64,000 bases of DNA from the NCBI RefSeq assembly GCF_022869805.1, contig NZ_CP094974.1, forward strand, positions 1,178,001-1,242,000. The letters run 5' to 3'. Source of the stretch: Halosolutus halophilus (GTDB lineage: Archaea > Halobacteriota > Halobacteria > Halobacteriales > Natrialbaceae). The notes below the pieces were generated by a model. That model saw only the letters and a list, made by a program, of their open reading frames with translations, was not told where the DNA came from and made no database searches. The translations under genes were made by a program, and so were the position numbers. Of this stretch, positions 2,875 through 35,658 are shown one piece after another; the first letter of the stretch is position 1, and each line of letters begins with the position of its first letter.

Positions 2875-3243
2875 TTAGCCCTCGACTGGGATCTCCTTGC
2901 CGCGGGTCGTCGCCCCCGCGATCGGCAGGGAGATCTCGAGGACGCCGTTGGTGTACGCCGCCGAGATCTCCTCGTCGACGATGTCCTTGGGGAACCGGAA
3001 CCGGCGGTGGTAGGTCTGCTTTCGGCCGCGCTCGTCGTCGACGTGTTCGGCGGCGACGTTCAGGACGCCCTCGTCCCACGTCACCTCGATCTCGTCGGTC
3101 TCGAAGCCCGGCATGTCGACCGTGAGGACGAATTCGTCGTCCTCCTCGTACAGTTCGTAGTCGTTGCTTCCCTGGTCACCGAACAGACGAGAGGGCATGT
3201 CGAGGCCCTGGGTCCAGGTGCTTGGTGTCGGTCGGAGCACCAT
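2875..3243 (-). CDS. Hsp20/alpha-crystallin small heat-shock protein
   Basis: A 122-residue ATP-independent holdase chaperone. The alpha-crystallin domain covers about residues 28-115: EEDDEFVLTVDMPGF is the typical opening strand, and the C-terminal TNGVLEISLP is the conserved A-x-x-x-n-G-v-L segment. The protein ends soon after, without a clear I-x-I tail (GKEIPVEG), so higher oligomer assembly may differ. An AT-rich promoter with a TATA-like TAATAAAT lies about 45 bp upstream (3286-3293), consistent with a heat-regulated haloarchaeal promoter. It lies near the Cdc48-like gene, which suits a shared protein-quality-control role. Confidence 0.9.
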   Translation of the reverse strand: MVLRPTPSTWTQGLDMPSRLFGDQGSNDYELYEEDDEFVLTVDMPGFETDEIEVTWDEGVLNVAAEHVDDERGRKQTYHRRFRFPKDIVDEEISAAYTNGVLEISLPIAGATTRGKEIPVEG

Positions 3244-3465
3244 CGCTGGTCACCTCGTTTCCATTTGGCGATTGTATGCGGTTCGTAATAAATCTAACGA
3301 ATTATGACATATAGTAACAAACAACATCATCCGCGTGATGGCGTCCGATCGGGCCGACGATCGGATGTCGTGGCCGGGTCGCGACGGCGGCCGTTCCCTG
3401 ACGGTATCCTCGATCGGATCTGGCCGAGGAAAAGGCCCATTAGTCAGTCGATACATTTCTCGGGT

Positions 3466-17559: not shown

Positions 17560-18393
17560 TCAGCTGAGCGCCTGCCGTTCCATGGCCTGCTGGAATCCGT
17601 TGTGCGTAACCTCCTCCAGCACAACGGCTTCGGAATCGTACACCTCGTAGACGGTCTCGGCCCACTCACGCACCGCCGGCGAGTCGGTATCAGCAAACAC
17701 GCTGAGTTGCCTGGTGTCCGGCTCGCTGACTCCAATACCGACCCGATCGTCGAAAATAGCGAGTCCGAACGGGAGTTCGTCGTGTAGCTGGACCGTCAGA
17801 TAGCCGCTCGCACATGCCTCTATGCATTTCTCCGGATAGCCGTCAATAGTGTCCTTGGCTACCTCGGGAAGGGCGATCGTCTCTGTCTCCATCCCCTCGA
17901 CGATTTCTCGCTGGATTTCGTCCAAGTAGACTGGAGCGATAACATCGATATCGAACCCTCGGAGCGACTCGGTTTCTCGAACGAGCGCGACAAACCTCAC
18001 CACCGGGCTGTAGGGATCACCGCGTACGGCGCTCGTCACCCTCGCTCCGGCAAACGCGTGGATGTCGATATCTATCGGCGCATCCCCAATAGCCTCCAGT
18101 ACCGGGGCGAGCTGGAGCGCCGAGCTTACCTCCCGCTTGAAGCTGACGACCGCTTCGGCGAGCAGTAAACCTGACGGCGTAAGCCTGAATTCTCCGTTCA
18201 CCTTCTCGATCACGCCCAACTCCTCGAGCAGTCTCGTGTGTCGGTGGATGGTCGCCCGCGATACGTCCAGCCGGTCCTGTAACTCCCGTCGATCGAACCC
18301 GTCTCCCTGGAGTTCCTCTAAGAGTGGCGACCGCCGGAGCAAGTCGATCAGGACGTCGAGATGCTCGCCTCGTGGTGTGGTAGCCATACGCAT
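17560..18393 (-). CDS. FilR1-type helix-turn-helix regulator
   Basis: A 277-residue protein. The N-terminal winged helix (about residues 15-80) has FDRRELQDRLDVSRATIHRH and LEELGVIEKVNGEFRLTPSG. The rest is the FilR1 middle domain, ending DELPFGLAIFDDRVGIGVSE and VFADTDSPAVREWAETVYEVY, which is near-superimposable on two other regulators in this window (23172-23996 and 34714-35658). It is divergent from the SnoaL-FAD oxidase fusion; an inverted repeat lies between them at 18419-18437. ATG codons at 18393 and 18387 are both possible starts. Confidence 0.85.
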   Translation of the reverse strand: MRMATTPRGEHLDVLIDLLRRSPLLEELQGDGFDRRELQDRLDVSRATIHRHTRLLEELGVIEKVNGEFRLTPSGLLLAEAVVSFKREVSSALQLAPVLEAIGDAPIDIDIHAFAGARVTSAVRGDPYSPVVRFVALVRETESLRGFDIDVIAPVYLDEIQREIVEGMETETIALPEVAKDTIDGYPEKCIEACASGYLTVQLHDELPFGLAIFDDRVGIGVSEPDTRQLSVFADTDSPAVREWAETVYEVYDSEAVVLEEVTHNGFQQAMERQALS

Positions 18394-18418: not shown

Positions 18419-18437
18419 TGTCTCAGGGGGTGAGACA
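18419..18437. promoter_or_regulatory. inverted repeat operator candidate
   Basis: TGTCTCA and TGAGACA form perfect 7-bp arms around GGGGG, 26 bp upstream of the regulator's start codon and within the divergent promoter region shared with the FAD oxidase fusion. It is a plausible autoregulatory site. Confidence 0.45.
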
Positions 18438-18578
18438 CCTCGTAGGGGCTCTCATCACCCGCGAGAATCTCACTAGTTAATTACAATTATTCGCCCACCG
18501 TCGTGGACGTATGCCCCGTTCGGGCAGTCTCGACCCGGCAGTCGGGAACGAGAAACCAATCAATCGAGTGAGCGACCG

Positions 18579-20384
18579 ATGGCAACTGAATCCCCATCTC
18601 CGACCGACCACGAAACGCTCGGCCGTACGTTCGTTGACGCGGCCTGGAACGACGGCGATCTCGACCGGGTCGAGGGCCTGTGTACCAACGATGTCGTCGT
18701 CCACGATCCCGCGAATCCGACCGCTGAAATCGGGCCCACAGGGTACCAACGGTACGTCTCGCGGATCACGGACGAAGCCGCTGACCTAGAACTGACGATC
18801 GAGGACGTCACTGTCGCCGATGGAACGGTGGCCGTCCGGACGGTCGGTCGTGCCAGCTCGGAGAACCTTGACGGCGAGGACGACGAACCGACGCTCTCGG
18901 GCTTCGAGGTCATCCACGTTGAGGAGGACTCGATCGTGGAGTGGTCCGGGACGCTGCTCGCCGACGCTGACCTAGAAGCGTTCGTCGAGAGCTTCGCCGG
19001 CGAGGTGGTTCGTCCCGGCGATGCCGGCTACGACGATGCGCGCGCGGTCTGGAACGGACTGATCGACAAATACCCGGCACTCGTCGCCACGTGTACCGGC
19101 GTCGCCGACGTCATCGAAGCCGTGAACTTCGCCCGCGAGCACGATCTCCTGGTGGCAGTCCGCGGTGGCGGTCACAACGTCGCTGGATCCGGCGTCTGTG
19201 ACGGCGGGATCGTCATCGATCTCTCGGCGATGACCGGCGTTCACGTGGATCTCGATGCATCAGTCGTTCGGGCTGAAGGAGGTGCGACGTGGGGTGATCT
19301 CGACCGAGAGACGCAGGTCTTTGGGCTGGCGACGCCCGGTGGCGTGGTCTCGACGACGGGTATCGCAGGGCTGACCCTCGGTGGCGGGATGGGCTGGCTC
19401 CGCCGGAAGTACGCCCTGACCATCGACAACCTCGTCTCTGTCGACCTCGTCACCGCCGACGGCGAGTTCCGTACCGCCAGTGACCGCGAGAATCCGGACC
19501 TGTTCTGGGGACTCAGGGGAGGTGGTGGCAACTTCGGTGTCGTCACCAGCTTCGAGTACCGACTCCATCCGGTGGGCCCGGAGGTCATGTTCGCCGCGCC
19601 GATGTACCCGCTCGAGACGGCGCGCGACGTCCTCCCCGACTGGCGCGAGTTCGTCGCGGACGCTCCGGAGGAAGTGTCTGCGGAGGCGGTCTTCTGGTCG
19701 GTTCCCGAACTCCCCGATTTCCCCGAGGAAACACGTGGCAAGTCCGTCGTTGTACTTCCCGCCATGCACTGCGGCTCGGTCGAGGAGGGCCGTCGGGTTC
19801 TCCAGCCGCTGCGCGAACTCGCCGAGCCACTCATCGATCTGAGCGGGCCGGCCCCGTACACGCAGGTCCAGCAGATGTTCGACCCGTTCTTGCCCGAGGG
19901 AGAGCTACGGTACTACTGGAAGTCGATCAATCTGGACCGCCTCGACGACGAAGTCATCGAGGCGATCGTCTCGATCGCTGAGGATCGCCCCGACGACAGA
20001 GTTCTCATCCCGATCTGGCATCACGGCGGTGCAATGAACCGCGTGGATCCTCCCGAAACGGCCTACGGTGGCCGGAGTACGGACTTCATGCTGAGCTTCG
20101 ATTCGACCTGGGAGGATCCAGCCAAAAGCGAAGAAATGGTCGACTGGACACGCGAGGCGTGGGCGGACATGCATAGATTCTCCGACGGTAGCCTCTACCT
20201 GAACTTCCCGGGCTTCAGCGAAGAGGGCGAAGAGTTAGTGCGTGCGGCGCACGGTCGAGAGATCCACGAGCGGTTGGTCGCGCTGAAAGATGAGTACGAC
20301 CCCGAGAACCTGTTCCGGCTGAACCAGAACGTCACGCCGTCCGGAAGCACTCGGACCGACGGTGGGCGACGGGGCGATAACTGA
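18579..20384 (+). CDS. SnoaL-like domain fused to a berberine-bridge-type FAD oxidase
   Basis: A 601-residue two-domain protein. Residues about 10-135 are an NTF2/SnoaL-like polyketide-cyclase fold (FVDAAWNDGDLDRVEGLCTN, GPTGYQRYVSRI, then a GFEVIHVEEDSIVEWSG end). Residues about 140-590 are a complete FAD-linked oxidase: RGGGHNVAG at about 195 (the His is the expected covalent FAD link), LGGGMGWLRRKYAL, WGLRGGGGNFG, and the C-terminal BBE segment YDPENLFRLNQNV. The Cys used for a second FAD bond in plant BBE appears absent. The oxidase half is homologous to the stand-alone 465-residue protein at 33167-34564, so the SnoaL part is an addition. Substrate unknown; oxidation of a cyclised or hydroxylated small molecule is inferred. 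Confidence 0.85.
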   Translation: MATESPSPTDHETLGRTFVDAAWNDGDLDRVEGLCTNDVVVHDPANPTAEIGPTGYQRYVSRITDEAADLELTIEDVTVADGTVAVRTVGRASSENLDGEDDEPTLSGFEVIHVEEDSIVEWSGTLLADADLEAFVESFAGEVVRPGDAGYDDARAVWNGLIDKYPALVATCTGVADVIEAVNFAREHDLLVAVRGGGHNVAGSGVCDGGIVIDLSAMTGVHVDLDASVVRAEGGATWGDLDRETQVFGLATPGGVVSTTGIAGLTLGGGMGWLRRKYALTIDNLVSVDLVTADGEFRTASDRENPDLFWGLRGGGGNFGVVTSFEYRLHPVGPEVMFAAPMYPLETARDVLPDWREFVADAPEEVSAEAVFWSVPELPDFPEETRGKSVVVLPAMHCGSVEEGRRVLQPLRELAEPLIDLSGPAPYTQVQQMFDPFLPEGELRYYWKSINLDRLDDEVIEAIVSIAEDRPDDRVLIPIWHHGGAMNRVDPPETAYGGRSTDFMLSFDSTWEDPAKSEEMVDWTREAWADMHRFSDGSLYLNFPGFSEEGEELVRAAHGREIHERLVALKDEYDPENLFRLNQNVTPSGSTRTDGGRRGDN

Positions 20385-20606: not shown

Positions 20607-21227
20607 TTACTCACGACGGAGCCGATACCAGCGCTCGTTTGGATTCATCAGCAGTTCGACTGGCTTGGGGGCCTCGAAGTGCGTGGGTCCGACGTCGGTT
20701 ACGTCCCAATCAGGGAAGGCCGTCTCGATCTCGCCGTAGCTTACGCCACGTGGCAAGGGTCCTCTGCGTTGGGGCGTCCACGCGAGCAGTAGCACGGTAG
20801 CATCGTCAGCGGCGACCGCGCTGATCTCCCGACCCATCGCGTGCCGTTGAGCGCTGTCGAGGCCATGGAAGGTGCCGGTATCCAGTACCAGCCGGAAGCC
20901 GGGCTCGACACCGACTGCGTGTAGTTCCGCCACGTCACCGTGGACGAGACGGACGTCGACACCGGCAGTTTGTACCCGGTCACGGGCCCGTCGGAGGGCC
21001 CCATCGACGATGTCGATACCGGTGACTTGCCAGCCCCGTTTCGCCAGTTCAACCGCCCAGATTCCACTGCCGGTACCGACGTCGAGCGCCCGTCCATATG
21101 GCGGCTCGCGGCCGTTTTCCTCGTGATCCAACAGCTCCGCGATTTTCTCGACGAACGGGGGATGTCCTGCGGCGTCCTCCCAGGGGTGGAAGTCGAGACG
21201 GTACGCGATCCGATAGAACGTACTCAT
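20607..21227 (-). CDS. class I SAM-dependent methyltransferase
   Basis: A 206-residue methyltransferase: motif I is ALDVGTGSGIWAVEL, the acidic strand-2 end is VTGIDIVDGALRRA, and FRLVLDTGTFHGLD follows as motif IV. The start MSTFYRIAYRLDFHPW overlaps the stop of the upstream hydrolase by ATGA, implying coupled translation; the longer reading begins in Arg-rich sequence. The substrate is unknown. It is the last gene of the operon regulator - methyltransferase - hydrolase-like - methyltransferase. Confidence 0.85.
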   Translation of the reverse strand: MSTFYRIAYRLDFHPWEDAAGHPPFVEKIAELLDHEENGREPPYGRALDVGTGSGIWAVELAKRGWQVTGIDIVDGALRRARDRVQTAGVDVRLVHGDVAELHAVGVEPGFRLVLDTGTFHGLDSAQRHAMGREISAVAADDATVLLLAWTPQRRGPLPRGVSYGEIETAFPDWDVTDVGPTHFEAPKPVELLMNPNERWYRLRRE

Positions 21228-22126
21228 GACGTCAACGATCTCCTCCTGGAGTTTGGATCGCCGTCGATCGCCCCATGAAGCGCCTCCAAGAACGCCTTGG
21301 GCTGTTCGAGTTTGGGATCGTCGCCGGCGTCGTCGATCACGCGCAGTGGCCATCCGTATCGTGCGCTCGCGTCTTCGGCTATCTCCAGCCGGATGGCGCG
21401 GTCGTCCCGTCCCCAGATCAGAGTCGTCGGAACCGTGATCCGGTCCAAGCGTTCTGACGAGATCGGAGACACCCCGACCTCCTTTATGAGGGTCCGCATG
21501 GCGGCCTTCACGCTTGGCGTGCGTGAGCGATCGAGGTTGTACGCTAGGAAGGGCTCCCAGTCATCACCCATTCCCTCGATCAGGCCGTCCCGATCGAGCA
21601 TACACTGATCGAGGAACCTGTGGTATGCCCGTTCCGTCGGTCGCACGAGGAAACGGATCAAACCGAACGCGAACCTCGCAGACGGCCGGAACCAGCCCAG
21701 GCCCAACGAATCTACGAGCACCAGCCGTTGGAGTCGGTCACTCTCGTCGCTTGCGAAGCGGGCCGCGATCGCGCCGCCGAGCAGGTGTCCGACCAGCGTC
21801 GGCGGCGTCGGGCAGGTTTGCTCGATCAGTTCGCCGAGCCACGCGACCACCGAGTCGGGGTCCAGCGCGCCGTCCGGTACCTCGGAGGCGCCGTGACCGG
21901 GCAGGTCGGGGACGATCACGCGGTGGGTCCTCACCAGATCCGGAATGACCCGCATCCACCAGAACGCGGATTCGCCGGGGCCGTGCAGCAGGACGATCGG
22001 CGGGCCAGCACCGCCCTCCAGCACGGCGGTCGAAACGCCAGCCAGCTGCAGCCGTCGTTCCGTGACGGGGAGTTCGACGAGCAGCCGCTCCCGAGCGTCC
22101 TCCGTTTGTTGTTCCTGTCTGGTCAT
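21224..22126 (-). CDS. alpha/beta hydrolase-fold protein lacking catalytic Ser and His
   Basis: A 300-residue alpha/beta hydrolase. The oxyanion region (VLLHGPGESAFWW) and the acid position (WGRDDRAI) are normal. However, the nucleophile elbow reads GHLLGG (Leu115, codon 21782-21784, where G-x-S-x-G is expected), and the histidine loop reads DDAGDDPKLEQP (Asp269, codon 21320-21322, where His is expected). Both changes occur in otherwise well-conserved motifs, and the reading frame is intact over full length. It may be a pseudoenzyme (binding, scaffold or non-hydrolytic lyase role) or a recently inactivated gene. It is coupled by ATGA to the following methyltransferase and starts 22 bp after the preceding one. 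Confidence 0.82.
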   Translation of the reverse strand: MTRQEQQTEDARERLLVELPVTERRLQLAGVSTAVLEGGAGPPIVLLHGPGESAFWWMRVIPDLVRTHRVIVPDLPGHGASEVPDGALDPDSVVAWLGELIEQTCPTPPTLVGHLLGGAIAARFASDESDRLQRLVLVDSLGLGWFRPSARFAFGLIRFLVRPTERAYHRFLDQCMLDRDGLIEGMGDDWEPFLAYNLDRSRTPSVKAAMRTLIKEVGVSPISSERLDRITVPTTLIWGRDDRAIRLEIAEDASARYGWPLRVIDDAGDDPKLEQPKAFLEALHGAIDGDPNSRRRSLTS

Positions 22127-22148
22127 CGTTTTCGTCGGGTGCACTGGC

Positions 22149-22973
22149 TCACTTCGTCCCGATCCCGATGTTAACCGCGTTGTTCAACACGGCGAGGCCG
22201 CTTCCTCCGGACCGCTCGCTCAGCTTCTCATCCAGCGCCTGCTGGGCCGCGGCTGTCTGCTCCGCCGTCAGATCGGCGACCATCTCCGCCCCGATCGGGT
22301 TGCTGGCGGTCACCCAGTCCCACATCTGCGTGCCGGAGCGGAACTCCAACCGATGGTTCGCTGTCTCCACGCGGATATCCGTCAGTCCGCCGTCGGCCAG
22401 TTTCTCGCGCAGTTTCTCGGGATCCGCTACCTGGAAGGGTAACGGCGGGGGGTCCATCGGGAGGCCCGTGAAGTCGGGGACGACAGCTGTTACTGCGTCG
22501 AGGAAGACTCCGAGGAACTCGACGTCCGAGAGCGGGCCCATCGTGACCAGCAGCACGCGACCACCCGGCTTGGTGACGCGCGCCATCTCGGCGAGACCGC
22601 GCAGCAGATCCGGAAAGAGCATGACGCCGAACTGTGAGCCGGCGATGTCGAACGCGTCGTCCTCAAGTGCGAGAGTGTGACCGTCCATGACGCGGGCTTC
22701 CAGGTTGAAGAGTCCTTCCTCACGCGCCCGTGCTTCGAGTCGCTCGACCATGGCGGGCGAGATGTCCGTCGCCAGCACCTGTGCGCCAGCGCGAGCCGCG
22801 GGAACGCTCAACGCACCACTGCCGGCCGCGATGTCCAACACTTCCATTCCTGGGCGGAGCCCAGCCCGCTGGAGGGCCTCCTCCGCTATGGCTATGTTCG
22901 ATGGAGTAACGTGCTCGTCATACCTCGGTGCGATTTCGGTCCATGCGTCCTGTATCTCTGCTTGATCGGCCAT
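22149..22973 (-). CDS. class I SAM-dependent methyltransferase (UbiE/COQ5-like)
   Basis: A 274-residue methyltransferase: motif I is VLDIAAGSGALSVPAARAG, then VLATDISPAMVERLEARA, a DDAFDIAGSQFGVMLFPD motif, and VTKPGGRVLLVTMG (motif VI). The start MADQAEIQDAWTEIAPRYDE is typical of small-molecule C- or O-methyltransferases. It heads an operon with the catalytically altered hydrolase and a second methyltransferase. A perfect 14-bp palindrome lies about 47 bp upstream of the start. Confidence 0.87.
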   Translation of the reverse strand: MADQAEIQDAWTEIAPRYDEHVTPSNIAIAEEALQRAGLRPGMEVLDIAAGSGALSVPAARAGAQVLATDISPAMVERLEARAREEGLFNLEARVMDGHTLALEDDAFDIAGSQFGVMLFPDLLRGLAEMARVTKPGGRVLLVTMGPLSDVEFLGVFLDAVTAVVPDFTGLPMDPPPLPFQVADPEKLREKLADGGLTDIRVETANHRLEFRSGTQMWDWVTASNPIGAEMVADLTAEQTAAAQQALDEKLSERSGGSGLAVLNNAVNIGIGTK

Positions 22974-23019
22974 GATGCCTCGATTCCCAATAGGCTCGCC
23001 GCAGACATGTATATTCCTT

Positions 23020-23033
23020 GTGAAATATTTCAC
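23020..23033. promoter_or_regulatory. palindromic operator candidate
   Basis: GTGAAATATTTCAC is a perfect 14-bp palindrome next to a TATA-like TATATT (about 23010-23015) in the promoter of the methyltransferase operon. The FilR1-type regulator encoded immediately upstream on the same strand is the obvious candidate binder. Confidence 0.5.
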
Positions 23034-23171
23034 CCTGTGAAGAAAGCGTCGGATTTCCGACGGAAAGGAAACACGATCTGGTACGGTTGATTGCCACACG
23101 TATTAGATTCGATTCATAATAGCTGGGCGTATCGCGAAGCGCCGAAACTACGTCCGCCACCCGCAGGCGTC

Positions 23172-23996
23172 CTACGAGTGAAGATCCGATGAGACGAGCG
23201 TCTCGAACGCCTGGGGCTCGACTAGCCTCGCCTCCTTGCGGACGCGCTCGAAGGTGGAGATGGCCCACTCTCGGGCCGCCGGAGCGTCCGTATCGATCAC
23301 GGCTGTCAGTGCCCCAGTCTCGGTGTCGTGACAGCAGATGCCAGCGCGGTCGTCCACGATACCGAGGCCACACCGGGACCTGTCGGGGAGGTCATCGTGG
23401 ACGAAAACGGTGCAGTGGTCGCACGAGGCGACCTCCGTGACGCGTTCCGGGTTCCAGGCGAACGTCTTCTCAAGCGCTGTCGGCGAGTACACGTACTCTA
23501 ACTCCATGCCGTCGAGGACAGCCTGGCAGACCGTCTCGTTGTTGATCGACTTGAACACGATACTGTCGAACCCTCGCAGTCGAGTGGTCCCCTCGATGAG
23601 GTGGGTCAGACGCTCGACGGGCTCGTACGGGTAGCCCGGTCCGGGATAGGAGACCACCGCATCGGTGAAGAGGTCGACGGAGAACCCATCCATTTCCCGC
23701 GGCAGCCACTGCCAAACGTCGCGTAACTTGCGTTCGATCTCCATCGCTTCTCGGAGCTCAAGGAATCGTTCGGCGACGAACTCGCCGAGCGGGGTCAGTT
23801 CGTAGGTCGGGCCCTCCCGGACGATCCATCGACGATCTTCAAAGTCAGCGAGAATCCGGCTCATGGTCGGTGAGGAGGCGCCCGTCGCGGCGCGAAGCTC
23901 CCCTCGTTCACAAGAGCCATCGATCAGTCCCTCCATCACACCGACTCGGTGGCTCGATCGGGCGAGAAATTCGATTTCTTCGGTGGCGACATCCAT
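23172..23996 (-). CDS. FilR1-type helix-turn-helix regulator
   Basis: A 274-residue paralogue of the regulator at 17560-18393. The N-terminal HTH contains CERGELRAATGASSPTMSRI and WIVREGPTYELTPLGEF. The FilR1 domain follows, ending DLPDRSRCGLGIVDDRAGIC and VIDTDAPAAREWAISTFERV. It has extra cysteines (EVASCDHCTVFVH), possibly redox- or metal-sensitive. It lies upstream of and on the same strand as the methyltransferase operon. The start at MDVATEEIEFL was preferred to an upstream ATG. Confidence 0.84.
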   Translation of the reverse strand: MDVATEEIEFLARSSHRVGVMEGLIDGSCERGELRAATGASSPTMSRILADFEDRRWIVREGPTYELTPLGEFVAERFLELREAMEIERKLRDVWQWLPREMDGFSVDLFTDAVVSYPGPGYPYEPVERLTHLIEGTTRLRGFDSIVFKSINNETVCQAVLDGMELEYVYSPTALEKTFAWNPERVTEVASCDHCTVFVHDDLPDRSRCGLGIVDDRAGICCHDTETGALTAVIDTDAPAAREWAISTFERVRKEARLVEPQAFETLVSSDLHS

Positions 23997-24118
23997 GATG
24001 TGTGTATGCGTACCACAGTATAATGTATATCGCTGCTCGTGACCAACTCGACGAGGAATACGCACGCGATATCTTGCACTGGGAGCACTGACTCATAGAG
24101 TGCCCTGTTTTTAGCTCC

Positions 24119-33166: not shown

Positions 33167-34564
33167 TCACGTCGGCTTGATATTCTGGTTCAGACTGAAG
33201 CGGTTCGTCGGATCGTACTCGTCTTTCAACGCGACCAACCGCTCGTAGGCCGGCCCGAACGTGGTCTCCATCAGTTCGTCGTTGTCCTCCAGCATGCCCG
33301 GAAAGTTCAGGTAGACCGAACCGTCGGAGAACTGCTGCATGTCGGTCAGGCAATCGCGGACCCACTCCACGTTGGCGGCATCCGTCTCGGGGTCCTCCCA
33401 GTTCGCTTCGACGCCGAGGAGGAACGGTGCGTGCCGGCCGGCGAAGGAACTCTCTTCGACGCCGACGTCGGCGATCGCGCCGCCCAGTTGCCAGACGTCG
33501 ACGGTCGAGAGCGGTGACGGGGCCGTCTCGGCCCAGTAGGCGATCCGATCGATGGCTGACTCGGAGAGGCCGTCGAGATACAGCGATTTCCAGTAGTATC
33601 GCATCCCCTCCGGGTAGTCTTCGTCGAGAACCCGCTGGAAGTCGGTATACGGCATCGTCCCGCTGAAGTCGGCGATCGGATCGGCGAACTCCCGGAGCGG
33701 TGCGAGTACCCGCTCGCCTTCGGAGGCGGGGCCAGCGTAGCAGCCCATGATGGCGAACTTTCCCTCGTGGACCCGCTCTGCCGGGAACAACTCCTCGTCC
33801 GGGAGTTCGCCGGCGAAGACGAGCGTGCTAATCTCGTCGGGCGCTTCCAGGACGAACTCCCGGTAGGCTCGCAACACTTCGGCTAGCCGGTCACCGGAGT
33901 AGAAGACCAGACAGGTCGCAACGTCCGGCCCCACGGGATGCAGGTCGAACTCGAACCCGGTCACCACCCCGAAGTTGCCGCCGCCACCACGGAGCCCCCA
34001 GAAGAGGTCCGGGTTCTCGTCCTCGCTGGCGGTCAGGAACTCGCCGGTTGCCGTGACGAGTTCGACGGAAACGAGGTTGTCACAGGACAGGCCGTACCGA
34101 CACCGGAGGTGCCCGAGGCCGCCGCCGAGAGTGAGGCCCGCGACGCCCGTATCCGAGACGACGCCTCCAGGCGTCGCCAGGCCGAACGCCTGCGTTTCGT
34201 GGTCGACGTCGGCCCACGTGGCACCGCCCTGGACCCACGCCGTCCGCTCGTCAGGGTCGACCCGCACACCCGTCATCTCGGAAAGGTCGATGACGAGGCC
34301 ATCGTCACAGACGGCCGTTCCGGCGACGTTGTGACCGCCGCCCCGGACCGCCACGCGAAGGTCGTTCTGGCGGGCGAACTCCACCGCGCGGATAACGTCC
34401 GCCGCGCCTCGACACCGGACGATCAGCCCCGGATACTTGTCGATCATTCCGTTCCAGACGGCCCGGGCGTCGTCGTAAGCGGCGTCAACGGGCCGGATCA
34501 CGTCCCCGCGAACGCCGGCCCGAAACCGTTCGATCTGCTCGTCACCGATGGTCAGTCGTGCCAT
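33167..34564 (-). CDS. berberine-bridge-type FAD-linked oxidase
   Basis: A 465-residue FAD-binding oxidoreductase: RGGGHNVAG with H78 as the expected covalent FAD ligand, LGGGLGHLRCRYGL, WGLRGGGGNFGVVTGF, and a C-terminal BBE segment YDPTNRFSLNQNIKPT. It is homologous over its full length to the oxidase half of the fusion at 18579-20384, without the SnoaL domain. It oxidises an alcohol or an aromatic/alkaloid-like substrate in known relatives; the substrate here is unknown. It is divergent from a FilR1-type regulator, repeating the pairing seen at 17.5-20.4 kb. Confidence 0.88.
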   Translation of the reverse strand: MARLTIGDEQIERFRAGVRGDVIRPVDAAYDDARAVWNGMIDKYPGLIVRCRGAADVIRAVEFARQNDLRVAVRGGGHNVAGTAVCDDGLVIDLSEMTGVRVDPDERTAWVQGGATWADVDHETQAFGLATPGGVVSDTGVAGLTLGGGLGHLRCRYGLSCDNLVSVELVTATGEFLTASEDENPDLFWGLRGGGGNFGVVTGFEFDLHPVGPDVATCLVFYSGDRLAEVLRAYREFVLEAPDEISTLVFAGELPDEELFPAERVHEGKFAIMGCYAGPASEGERVLAPLREFADPIADFSGTMPYTDFQRVLDEDYPEGMRYYWKSLYLDGLSESAIDRIAYWAETAPSPLSTVDVWQLGGAIADVGVEESSFAGRHAPFLLGVEANWEDPETDAANVEWVRDCLTDMQQFSDGSVYLNFPGMLEDNDELMETTFGPAYERLVALKDEYDPTNRFSLNQNIKPT

Positions 34565-34713
34565 ATACGATCGGTCGGCTGCCAGGCTGTTAGCCTCATT
34601 TACGGAGACGCGTTCGACGGAAGACGCACCGTTTCAGGTCGTGAGATGAATTTCGCCTGACGTACAAAATAGAGTTACTACCTATGCCATCCTCTACCTA
34701 GTTAGATGATATC

Positions 34714-35658
34714 ATGGTATTCCAGGAAGACGACCGAACGGCTGCTGACGGACGCCAGGAAGACGATCGAGCGGCTGCTGACGGACGACCACCGCCTGGC
34801 TCGCCGGTCCTGGAGGCGATCCTGAAGAACGCTCGCGATCGGCAGCATCTCGGTCAGCGACTCGACGCGGCGGGCGATCGTGTCGACACGGATCTGCTCG
34901 GCGACATCGTGCGTCACGGACCGGTGCTCGAAGCGCTCCGCACGGAACCGCTCGATCGTCGGGAGATCGAAGCGCGCCTGAACGTCTCTCGGGCGACGAG
35001 CCACCGCTTCACCCAGTGGCTCGACGAGCAGGGGTTCGTCGAAAAGGTCGAGGGCCGGTTCCAGTTGACGGGGCGTGGTGAGGCCGTGGCCGACGAGATG
35101 CTCCGGTTCGAGGCGAACGTGCGTACCGTCCACCGGCTGGCACCGCTGCTGGACGTTATCTGTGAGGACCACCAGGAGTTCGTCATCGAACCGTTCGTGG
35201 ATGCGAGGGTAACCCTCGCCGAACCGGACGCCCCCTACCAGCCGGTCAGGCGGTTCGTCTCGTTGCTCCGCGAATCGGAGACCTTCCGCGGGTTCAACAC
35301 GACGCACATGGCACCGCTCGTCCTCGGCGAGTTTCACCACCAGATCTTCGAAGAGACCGACACCGAAATCGTCTACCTTCCCCGCATCGTCGAGACGCTC
35401 TTCGAGACGTACCCCGAACGCGCCCGGGAGGCGATCGATCGCGGGCACCTGGCCCTCCGGACGCGCGACGAGTTGCCGTACGGTCTCGCGATCTTCGACG
35501 AGCGCGTCGGGATCGGGGGCTACGACGAGACCACCGGACTCATGCAGGTGTTCGTCGATACGGATGCGCCGATCGCACGCGAGTGGGCCAGTCGGGTGTA
35601 CGATTCGATCAGATCGGATTCCAAACCCCTCGACGAGGGAGAGGATCTGACCCGATGA
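34714..35658 (+). CDS. FilR1-type helix-turn-helix regulator with duplicated N-terminal 11-mer
   Basis: A 314-residue regulator. The N-terminus carries a tandem 11-residue repeat (QEDDRTAADGR, QEDDRAAADGR). The HTH covers about residues 60-125 (LDRREIEARLNVSRATSHRF, WLDEQGFVEKVEGRFQLTGRG), and the FilR1 domain ends LPYGLAIFDERVGIGGYDE and VFVDTDAPIAREWASRVYDS. It is the third such regulator in the window. It is divergent from the FAD oxidase and overlaps the downstream flavin monooxygenase by ATGA, so it is cotranscribed with the latter. Confidence 0.87.
   Translation: MVFQEDDRTAADGRQEDDRAAADGRPPPGSPVLEAILKNARDRQHLGQRLDAAGDRVDTDLLGDIVRHGPVLEALRTEPLDRREIEARLNVSRATSHRFTQWLDEQGFVEKVEGRFQLTGRGEAVADEMLRFEANVRTVHRLAPLLDVICEDHQEFVIEPFVDARVTLAEPDAPYQPVRRFVSLLRESETFRGFNTTHMAPLVLGEFHHQIFEETDTEIVYLPRIVETLFETYPERAREAIDRGHLALRTRDELPYGLAIFDERVGIGGYDETTGLMQVFVDTDAPIAREWASRVYDSIRSDSKPLDEGEDLTR
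34723..34788 (+). repeat. 33-bp in-frame tandem duplication
   Basis: Two adjacent 33-bp units differ at three positions and encode the 11-residue repeat at the N-terminus of the FilR1-type regulator. The near identity suggests a recent slippage duplication. Confidence 0.85.

Follow-up and report, generated by a model that had tools for sequence, protein, structure and literature searches.

EncM, the 'favorskiiase' of enterocin biosynthesis, is a flavin-N5-oxide oxygenase (PDB 3W8W, 4XLO) whose O2-pocket residues have been described, and its T139V variant gained oxidase activity (PMC7662398). Use of a flavin-N5-oxide had, according to a 2024 review, been demonstrated for no other member of the berberine-bridge-enzyme-like (BBE-like) subfamily to which EncM belongs (PMC11375781). 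Among the proteins of the SnoaL fold, SnoaL itself requires Asp121 and His107 (PMC6830212). In the two-component monooxygenase SnoaL2/SnoaW from the nogalamycin pathway, a SnoaL-fold protein completes an oxygenation begun by its redox partner (PMC12281474).

Analysis of 64,000 nucleotides of DNA from Halosolutus halophilus (the whole stretch, hereafter the window) revealed a gene that joins a SnoaL fold to an EncM-type oxidase. It occupies positions 18579-20384 of the plus strand as a single open reading frame of 601 codons, read through without interruption or frameshift, and encodes a protein of 601 aa. Pfam matches, all exceeding the curated cut-offs, were found at residues 16-122 (SnoaL_2/SnoaL, 5e-14 / 3e-12), 166-300 (FAD_binding_4, 5e-32) and 540-585 (BBE, 6e-8). 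The SnoaL/NTF2-fold domain comprises residues 11-128 (18609-18962, plus strand) and the oxidase half residues 129-589 (18963-20345, plus strand). The structure of the full-length protein and of its interface was predicted with AlphaFold2 from a 33-row alignment (pLDDT 84.7, pTM 0.87); in the model the final strand of the SnoaL domain (118-128) passes into the first helix of the oxidase (129-138) with no linker. The first-pass annotation had proposed this joining of two folds in one chain, with a frameshift at the junction as the possible artefact. The fusion is borne out, and a joining error is ruled out by the single reading frame, by the recurrence of the architecture at six loci and by an even GC3, which is 0.68-0.92 over codons 1-200 and shows no dip at the junction. 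In RefSeq, the fusion of Haloterrigena turkmenica is likewise annotated as one protein, WP_012945110.1. The window gene has no ATG between codons 90 and 165; GTG codons are present at 120 and 143, the GTG positions differ between loci, and nothing in the sequences seems to favour an internal restart that would split the two halves.

The best solved relative of the oxidase half, which has the VAO/PCMH fold, is EncM, with an E value of 4.8e-120 over residues 129-589. The Foldseek comparison likewise placed EncM ahead (44% identity, TM 0.95), followed by McrA and 6-hydroxy-D-nicotine oxidase (6-HDNO), both at 31%. A gapless alignment puts His199 (19173-19175, plus strand) at the position of EncM His78, the residue of the covalent FAD link; this histidine is conserved in 51 of 51 relatives, and the covalent bond at His199 is predicted from sequence. 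None of the 51 relatives has a cysteine at the positions of EncM 135 to 139, which we take to correspond to the second flavin-linking cysteine of the berberine-bridge enzymes. Judged by these residues, the oxidase half is a mono-covalent, EncM-type FAD oxidase and not a bicovalent berberine-bridge enzyme. The initial assignment to berberine-bridge-type covalent-flavin oxidases is thus right as to the covalent-flavin class and wrong as to the type, the predicted link being a single histidyl one.

The O2-pocket residues of EncM are retained. Val135, Val136, Thr139 and Leu144 are kept as V256, V257, T260 and L265, while Leu116, Leu117 and His138, which adjoin the pocket, are replaced by T237, W238 and T259; the latter positions were not treated as family-defining, since nearly the whole family differs from EncM there, and the H138T variant of EncM has already been crystallised. 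Thr260 (19356-19358, plus strand), the equivalent of Thr139, is invariant in all 51 relatives and so cannot tell which members oxygenate. An Arthrobacter 6-HDNO whose sequence is effectively that of PDB 2BVF carries Val at this position, and on this residue the oxidase half is placed with EncM, apart from the 6-HDNO oxidases.

The alpha+beta barrel of the SnoaL/NTF2-like fold was confirmed for the N-terminal domain by Pfam, AlphaFold2 and Foldseek. The domain modelled alone had a pLDDT of 86.9, and its best structural matches were AclR, SnoaL-like cyclases, limonene epoxide hydrolase, ketosteroid isomerase (KSI) and IdmH. In the fusions the position of SnoaL Asp121 is occupied by Ser123/Ala or Gly124, and that of His107 by Glu110 in five of six and by Val in one. 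Because both catalytic equivalents are missing, the identity of a SnoaL-type aldol cyclase is ruled out for this half, as far as residues can tell. Unfused haloarchaeal 'ester cyclases' have a GTH-G motif and a C-terminal helix, both missing from the fusions as well.

The catalytic set of KSI consists of the 'EDP' aspartate together with Tyr16 and Asp103 of the oxyanion hole. The aspartate aligns with Asp43 (18705-18707, plus strand), which, like Glu121 and Trp122, is invariant across the six fusions. The position of Tyr16 is Phe/Leu at residue 18, and that of Asp103 corresponds to residue 110, Glu or, once, Val. A KSI-like acid-base role is therefore possible, and catalysis by this half remains putative, given that Asp43 is frequent in unfused SnoaL proteins too, that Glu110 is once Val, and that Phe/Leu takes the place of Tyr16.

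A search for the same domain order in other genomes found the full-length architecture at five further loci, so that six are known from at least three families. Besides the window they comprise plasmid pHTUR01 of H. turkmenica (L054), Halomicroarcula rubra (L055), genome G315 (L056), and two metagenome-assembled genomes, of Natronomonas (L040) and of a member of Haloarculaceae (L041). The fusion is rare and far from ubiquitous, occurring in four of the 391 haloarchaeal genomes sampled. EncM-type oxidases in general are present in 92 of 125 genomes of the family. The wide spread of stand-alone oxidases and the rarity of fusions support the earlier suggestion that the fusion is derived. No relative was found on viral contigs, and no published description of a SnoaL-EncM fusion was found in the open-licence literature. 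Bacterial genomes were covered by one peptide-pattern scan and a plasmid tblastn, a coverage with which a bacterial fusion could still exist.

Several remnants and additional copies were observed. Contig 9 of genome G113 carries a decayed fusion (L094, 6926-7400), in which the SnoaL half is interrupted by a TGA, has suffered a deletion and is attached to a fragment of a type II oxidase (see below); a 120-aa N-terminal extension of the G113 homologue L093 proved not to be SnoaL. On pHTUR01, a 'hypothetical' frame of 340 aa lies next to the fusion (L054, 6035-7057, minus strand). One part of it is an oxidase fragment with 38% identity to the fusion; another shares 70% identity with the regulator encoded at 23172-24065 of the window, and the frame is probably what is left of a further oxidase-regulator unit. 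Halomicroarcula rubra has, besides the fusion, a stand-alone EncM-type gene (L055, 11479-12894, minus strand), which lies on the other flank of the regulator described below.

The window also contains the stand-alone homologue that the first-pass annotation had pointed out, at 33167-34564 of the minus strand; its EncM-type product of 465 aa is 54.5% identical to the oxidase of the fusion. A paralogous HVO_A0261-type regulator gene (34714-35658, plus strand) is divergent from it, a pairing conserved in about 20 haloarchaeal loci, and between the two lies a variant operator-like site, GTTTCAGGTCGTGAGAT (34631-34647), with the related GTTTCA-N5-TGAGAC in L020, L022 and L038. This stand-alone gene was rejected as the parent of the window fusion's oxidase half, from which it differs in clade and to which it is 55% identical.

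Phylogenetic analysis revealed different histories for the two halves. The SnoaL halves form one clade (100/100), while the oxidase halves fall into two, type I (window, L054, L055 and L040) and type II (L041 and L056). Type II nests inside the clade of the 33167-34564 stand-alone gene, which thus supplied its oxidase half, and a single clade of all fusion oxidase halves was rejected (AU p=6e-5). L040 groups with L041 and L056 in the regulator tree (100/100) and, more weakly, in the SnoaL tree (87/93); the oxidase tree instead puts it with the window. One SnoaL clade and one regulator clade combined with two oxidase clades indicate that one oxidase was replaced by another while the SnoaL domain in front of it stayed the same. 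On these trees, different EncM subfamilies can supply the oxidase half of a unit in which the SnoaL domain, the regulator and the putative operator remain constant. The simplest history would be a single fusion event, after which the ancestor of L041 and L056 acquired a new oxidase half; a second independent capture is the alternative. Residue 478 is acidic (mostly Asp) in most relatives, Asp in the type II fusions and Pro in all those of type I, so that the two types may differ in active-site chemistry.

Divergent from the window fusion is a gene (17560-18393, minus strand) for a transcriptional regulator with HVO_A0261_N (2e-20) and FilR1_middle (2e-23) domains. Its orthologue was found at all six fusion loci, with 57-82% mutual identity and in a single clade (100/99), and is the only shared neighbour found across them; three of the loci have it upstream of the fusion and divergent from it, the other three downstream and convergent. 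The palindrome GTCTCA-N5-TGAGAC precedes the fusion gene at all six loci, with one mismatch in L055, and keeps that place wherever the regulator lies, upstream or downstream. In the window it lies at 18420-18436, where the candidate target sequence of the regulator reads GTCTCAGGGGGTGAGAC. This is the only match within one mismatch in the 64 kb (0.17 expected); the palindrome occurs once in the 5.06-Mb genome, and the relaxed pattern GTYTCA-N5-TGARAC gave no second exact match there. An extra TCTC(A) half-site (18450-18454, plus strand), its TCTC invariant in the six upstream regions, is followed by a promoter-like element, TCACTAGTTAATTACAATTATTC (18470-18492, plus strand), in which TCACT and TTA.A are invariant. 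The consensus of this element across the six loci is TCACTAGTTGATTACATT, and the order of palindrome, half-site and element is shared. As the sequences stand, regulator, putative operator and fusion are a conserved, self-contained unit. We infer that the regulator binds the palindrome and, from the linkage and the palindrome together, that the fusion gene is inducible.

Separate SnoaL genes adjoining EncM-type genes were also found. In the genome of the window, another EncM-type gene ends in TGATG, the ATG of which opens a complete SnoaL gene (G000:C1:3895128-3895592, minus strand); the overlapping pair spans 4129-5975 of L100, that is, G000:C1:3895128 to about 3897.0 kb on the minus strand. 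The gene order, oxidase then SnoaL, is the reverse of that in the fusion. The same adjacency was seen in G054, G055, G066, G071 and, in another family, G225. Within the sample of 391 genomes, every SnoaL protein at least 64% identical to that of the TGATG pair adjoins an EncM-type gene, and none of those 34-42% identical relatives whose loci were retrieved adjoins a full-strength EncM-type gene. Near a third EncM-type gene of the window genome (L007), a SnoaL_2 protein of 111 aa is encoded convergently (2919-3254, minus strand). The unfused SnoaL genes that overlap EncM-type genes retain the GTH and W..D motifs. This recurrent adjacency suggests that the two folds are probably functional partners, and it would be natural for such partners to act on a shared substrate. 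Another EncM-type gene is divergent from the TGATG pair; a divergent EncM pair was present in 16 fetched loci, of which five have the SnoaL gene.

The best reading of the locus, to which we assign a probability of about 0.55, is a locally regulated, inducible two-module oxidase/oxygenase that acts on an enolisable small molecule. Such a molecule, whether a catabolic substrate, a xenobiotic or a natural product, would alter the binding of the regulator at GTCTCA-N5-TGAGAC, and the altered binding would turn the fusion gene on. The His199-linked flavin in its EncM-like O2 pocket would oxidise, and possibly oxygenate, the inducing molecule. The SnoaL-fold module would hold the same substrate or an unstable product and perform or assist an acid-base step (enolisation, isomerisation or dehydration), with Asp43 as the likeliest base; it would not act as a SnoaL-type aldol cyclase. 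A proposal drawn by analogy with SnoaL2/SnoaW, that this is an archaeal single-chain two-component oxygenase in which a flavin-N5-oxide in the EncM-type half oxygenates the enolisable substrate and the SnoaL half resolves the intermediate by acid-base chemistry, with a dedicated substrate-sensing regulator, seems distinctly unlikely.

A serious minority possibility is that the EncM-type half does all the chemistry and the SnoaL half is a non-catalytic accessory, serving in dimerisation, ligand binding or protection of an intermediate. The loss of the SnoaL catalytic set, the GTH-G motif and the C-terminal helix from the fusions would agree with this, and there are precedents: ActVI-ORFA is an NTF2-like protein that directs flux but is no cyclase (PMC11315284), and SnoaL_2 domains are regulatory extensions on ECF sigma factors (PMC7730460). 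However, the invariance of Asp43, Glu121 and Trp122 is what would be expected of a pocket in use, and that the unfused proteins keep the GTH and W..D motifs suggests that, where the two are separate, the SnoaL partner is active. It is also conceivable, although unlikely, that the enzyme detoxifies, the flavin re-oxidising or otherwise inactivating a toxic quinone-like compound that the SnoaL half binds; this differs from the preferred two-module reading in role, not in anatomy. In structural comparison only EncM comes closer than the mitomycin radical oxidase McrA (PDB 9R43; 31% identity, TM 0.92), which has no SnoaL domain, and the sporadic spread, the plasmid copy in H. turkmenica, the private regulator and the swapping of oxidases all resemble the behaviour of resistance genes. 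Nevertheless, the oxidase half is nearer to EncM (44%) than to McrA, and no efflux gene is conserved with the fusion.

The original proposal was a SnoaL-type polyketide cyclase that passes a cyclised intermediate on for oxidation, in a local cluster for small-molecule tailoring, and it now appears highly improbable. The two folds do share one chain, and genes for an adenylating ligase, an MBL protein, a hydrolase and methyltransferases are close by. However, the minus strand, opposite the fusion, carries the genes for the ligase, the MBL protein and the methyltransferases, and none of these has a counterpart at the five remaining fusion loci, so that the tailoring pathway is not supported; the palindrome belongs to the promoter of the fusion alone. 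No PKS or ACP was detected by Pfam among ten neighbouring genes, which bears on the pathway and not on membership of the EncM family. Channelling of a cyclised intermediate is weakened by the lack of the Asp121 and His107 equivalents; a partnership on a shared substrate is nevertheless plausible, and the separate SnoaL-EncM neighbours support it. Two methyltransferase genes, an alpha/beta hydrolase gene and an HVO_A0261-type regulator gene make up a separate minus-strand block (20607-24065), which shows no conserved link to the fusion.

The private regulator and putative operator of the preferred two-module enzyme offer a direct route to its substrate, via the inducer of the gene, and the exchange of oxidases behind a fixed SnoaL domain, regulator and putative operator is an instance of modular evolution in a two-domain enzyme. 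Whether relatives of EncM share its N5-oxide chemistry could be asked in a controllable archaeal setting with the fusion, which also indicates a natural partner domain; were the two-component-oxygenase proposal true, it would be an archaeal flavin-N5-oxide enzyme, the second known in its flavoprotein subfamily. Compared with known systems, the fusion resembles EncM in the covalent-link histidine and the O2 pocket, but has an additional N-terminal SnoaL domain, its own regulator, replacements of Leu116, Leu117 and His138, and no PKS/ACP among the scanned neighbours. With 6-HDNO it shares the subfamily fold and the FAD-linking histidine, at 31-33% identity, but not the O2-pocket Val. It has the alpha+beta barrel of the SnoaL and AknH polyketide cyclases without their catalytic Asp121 and His107. 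With KSI, at 12-15% identity, it has in common the fold, the 'EDP' aspartate and, in five of six fusions, a glutamate near the second acid, but Phe/Leu instead of Tyr16. The closest working analogy is SnoaL2/SnoaW, although there the two components are separate proteins and SnoaW, the redox partner, is a reductase of the SDR type instead of a flavin oxidase.
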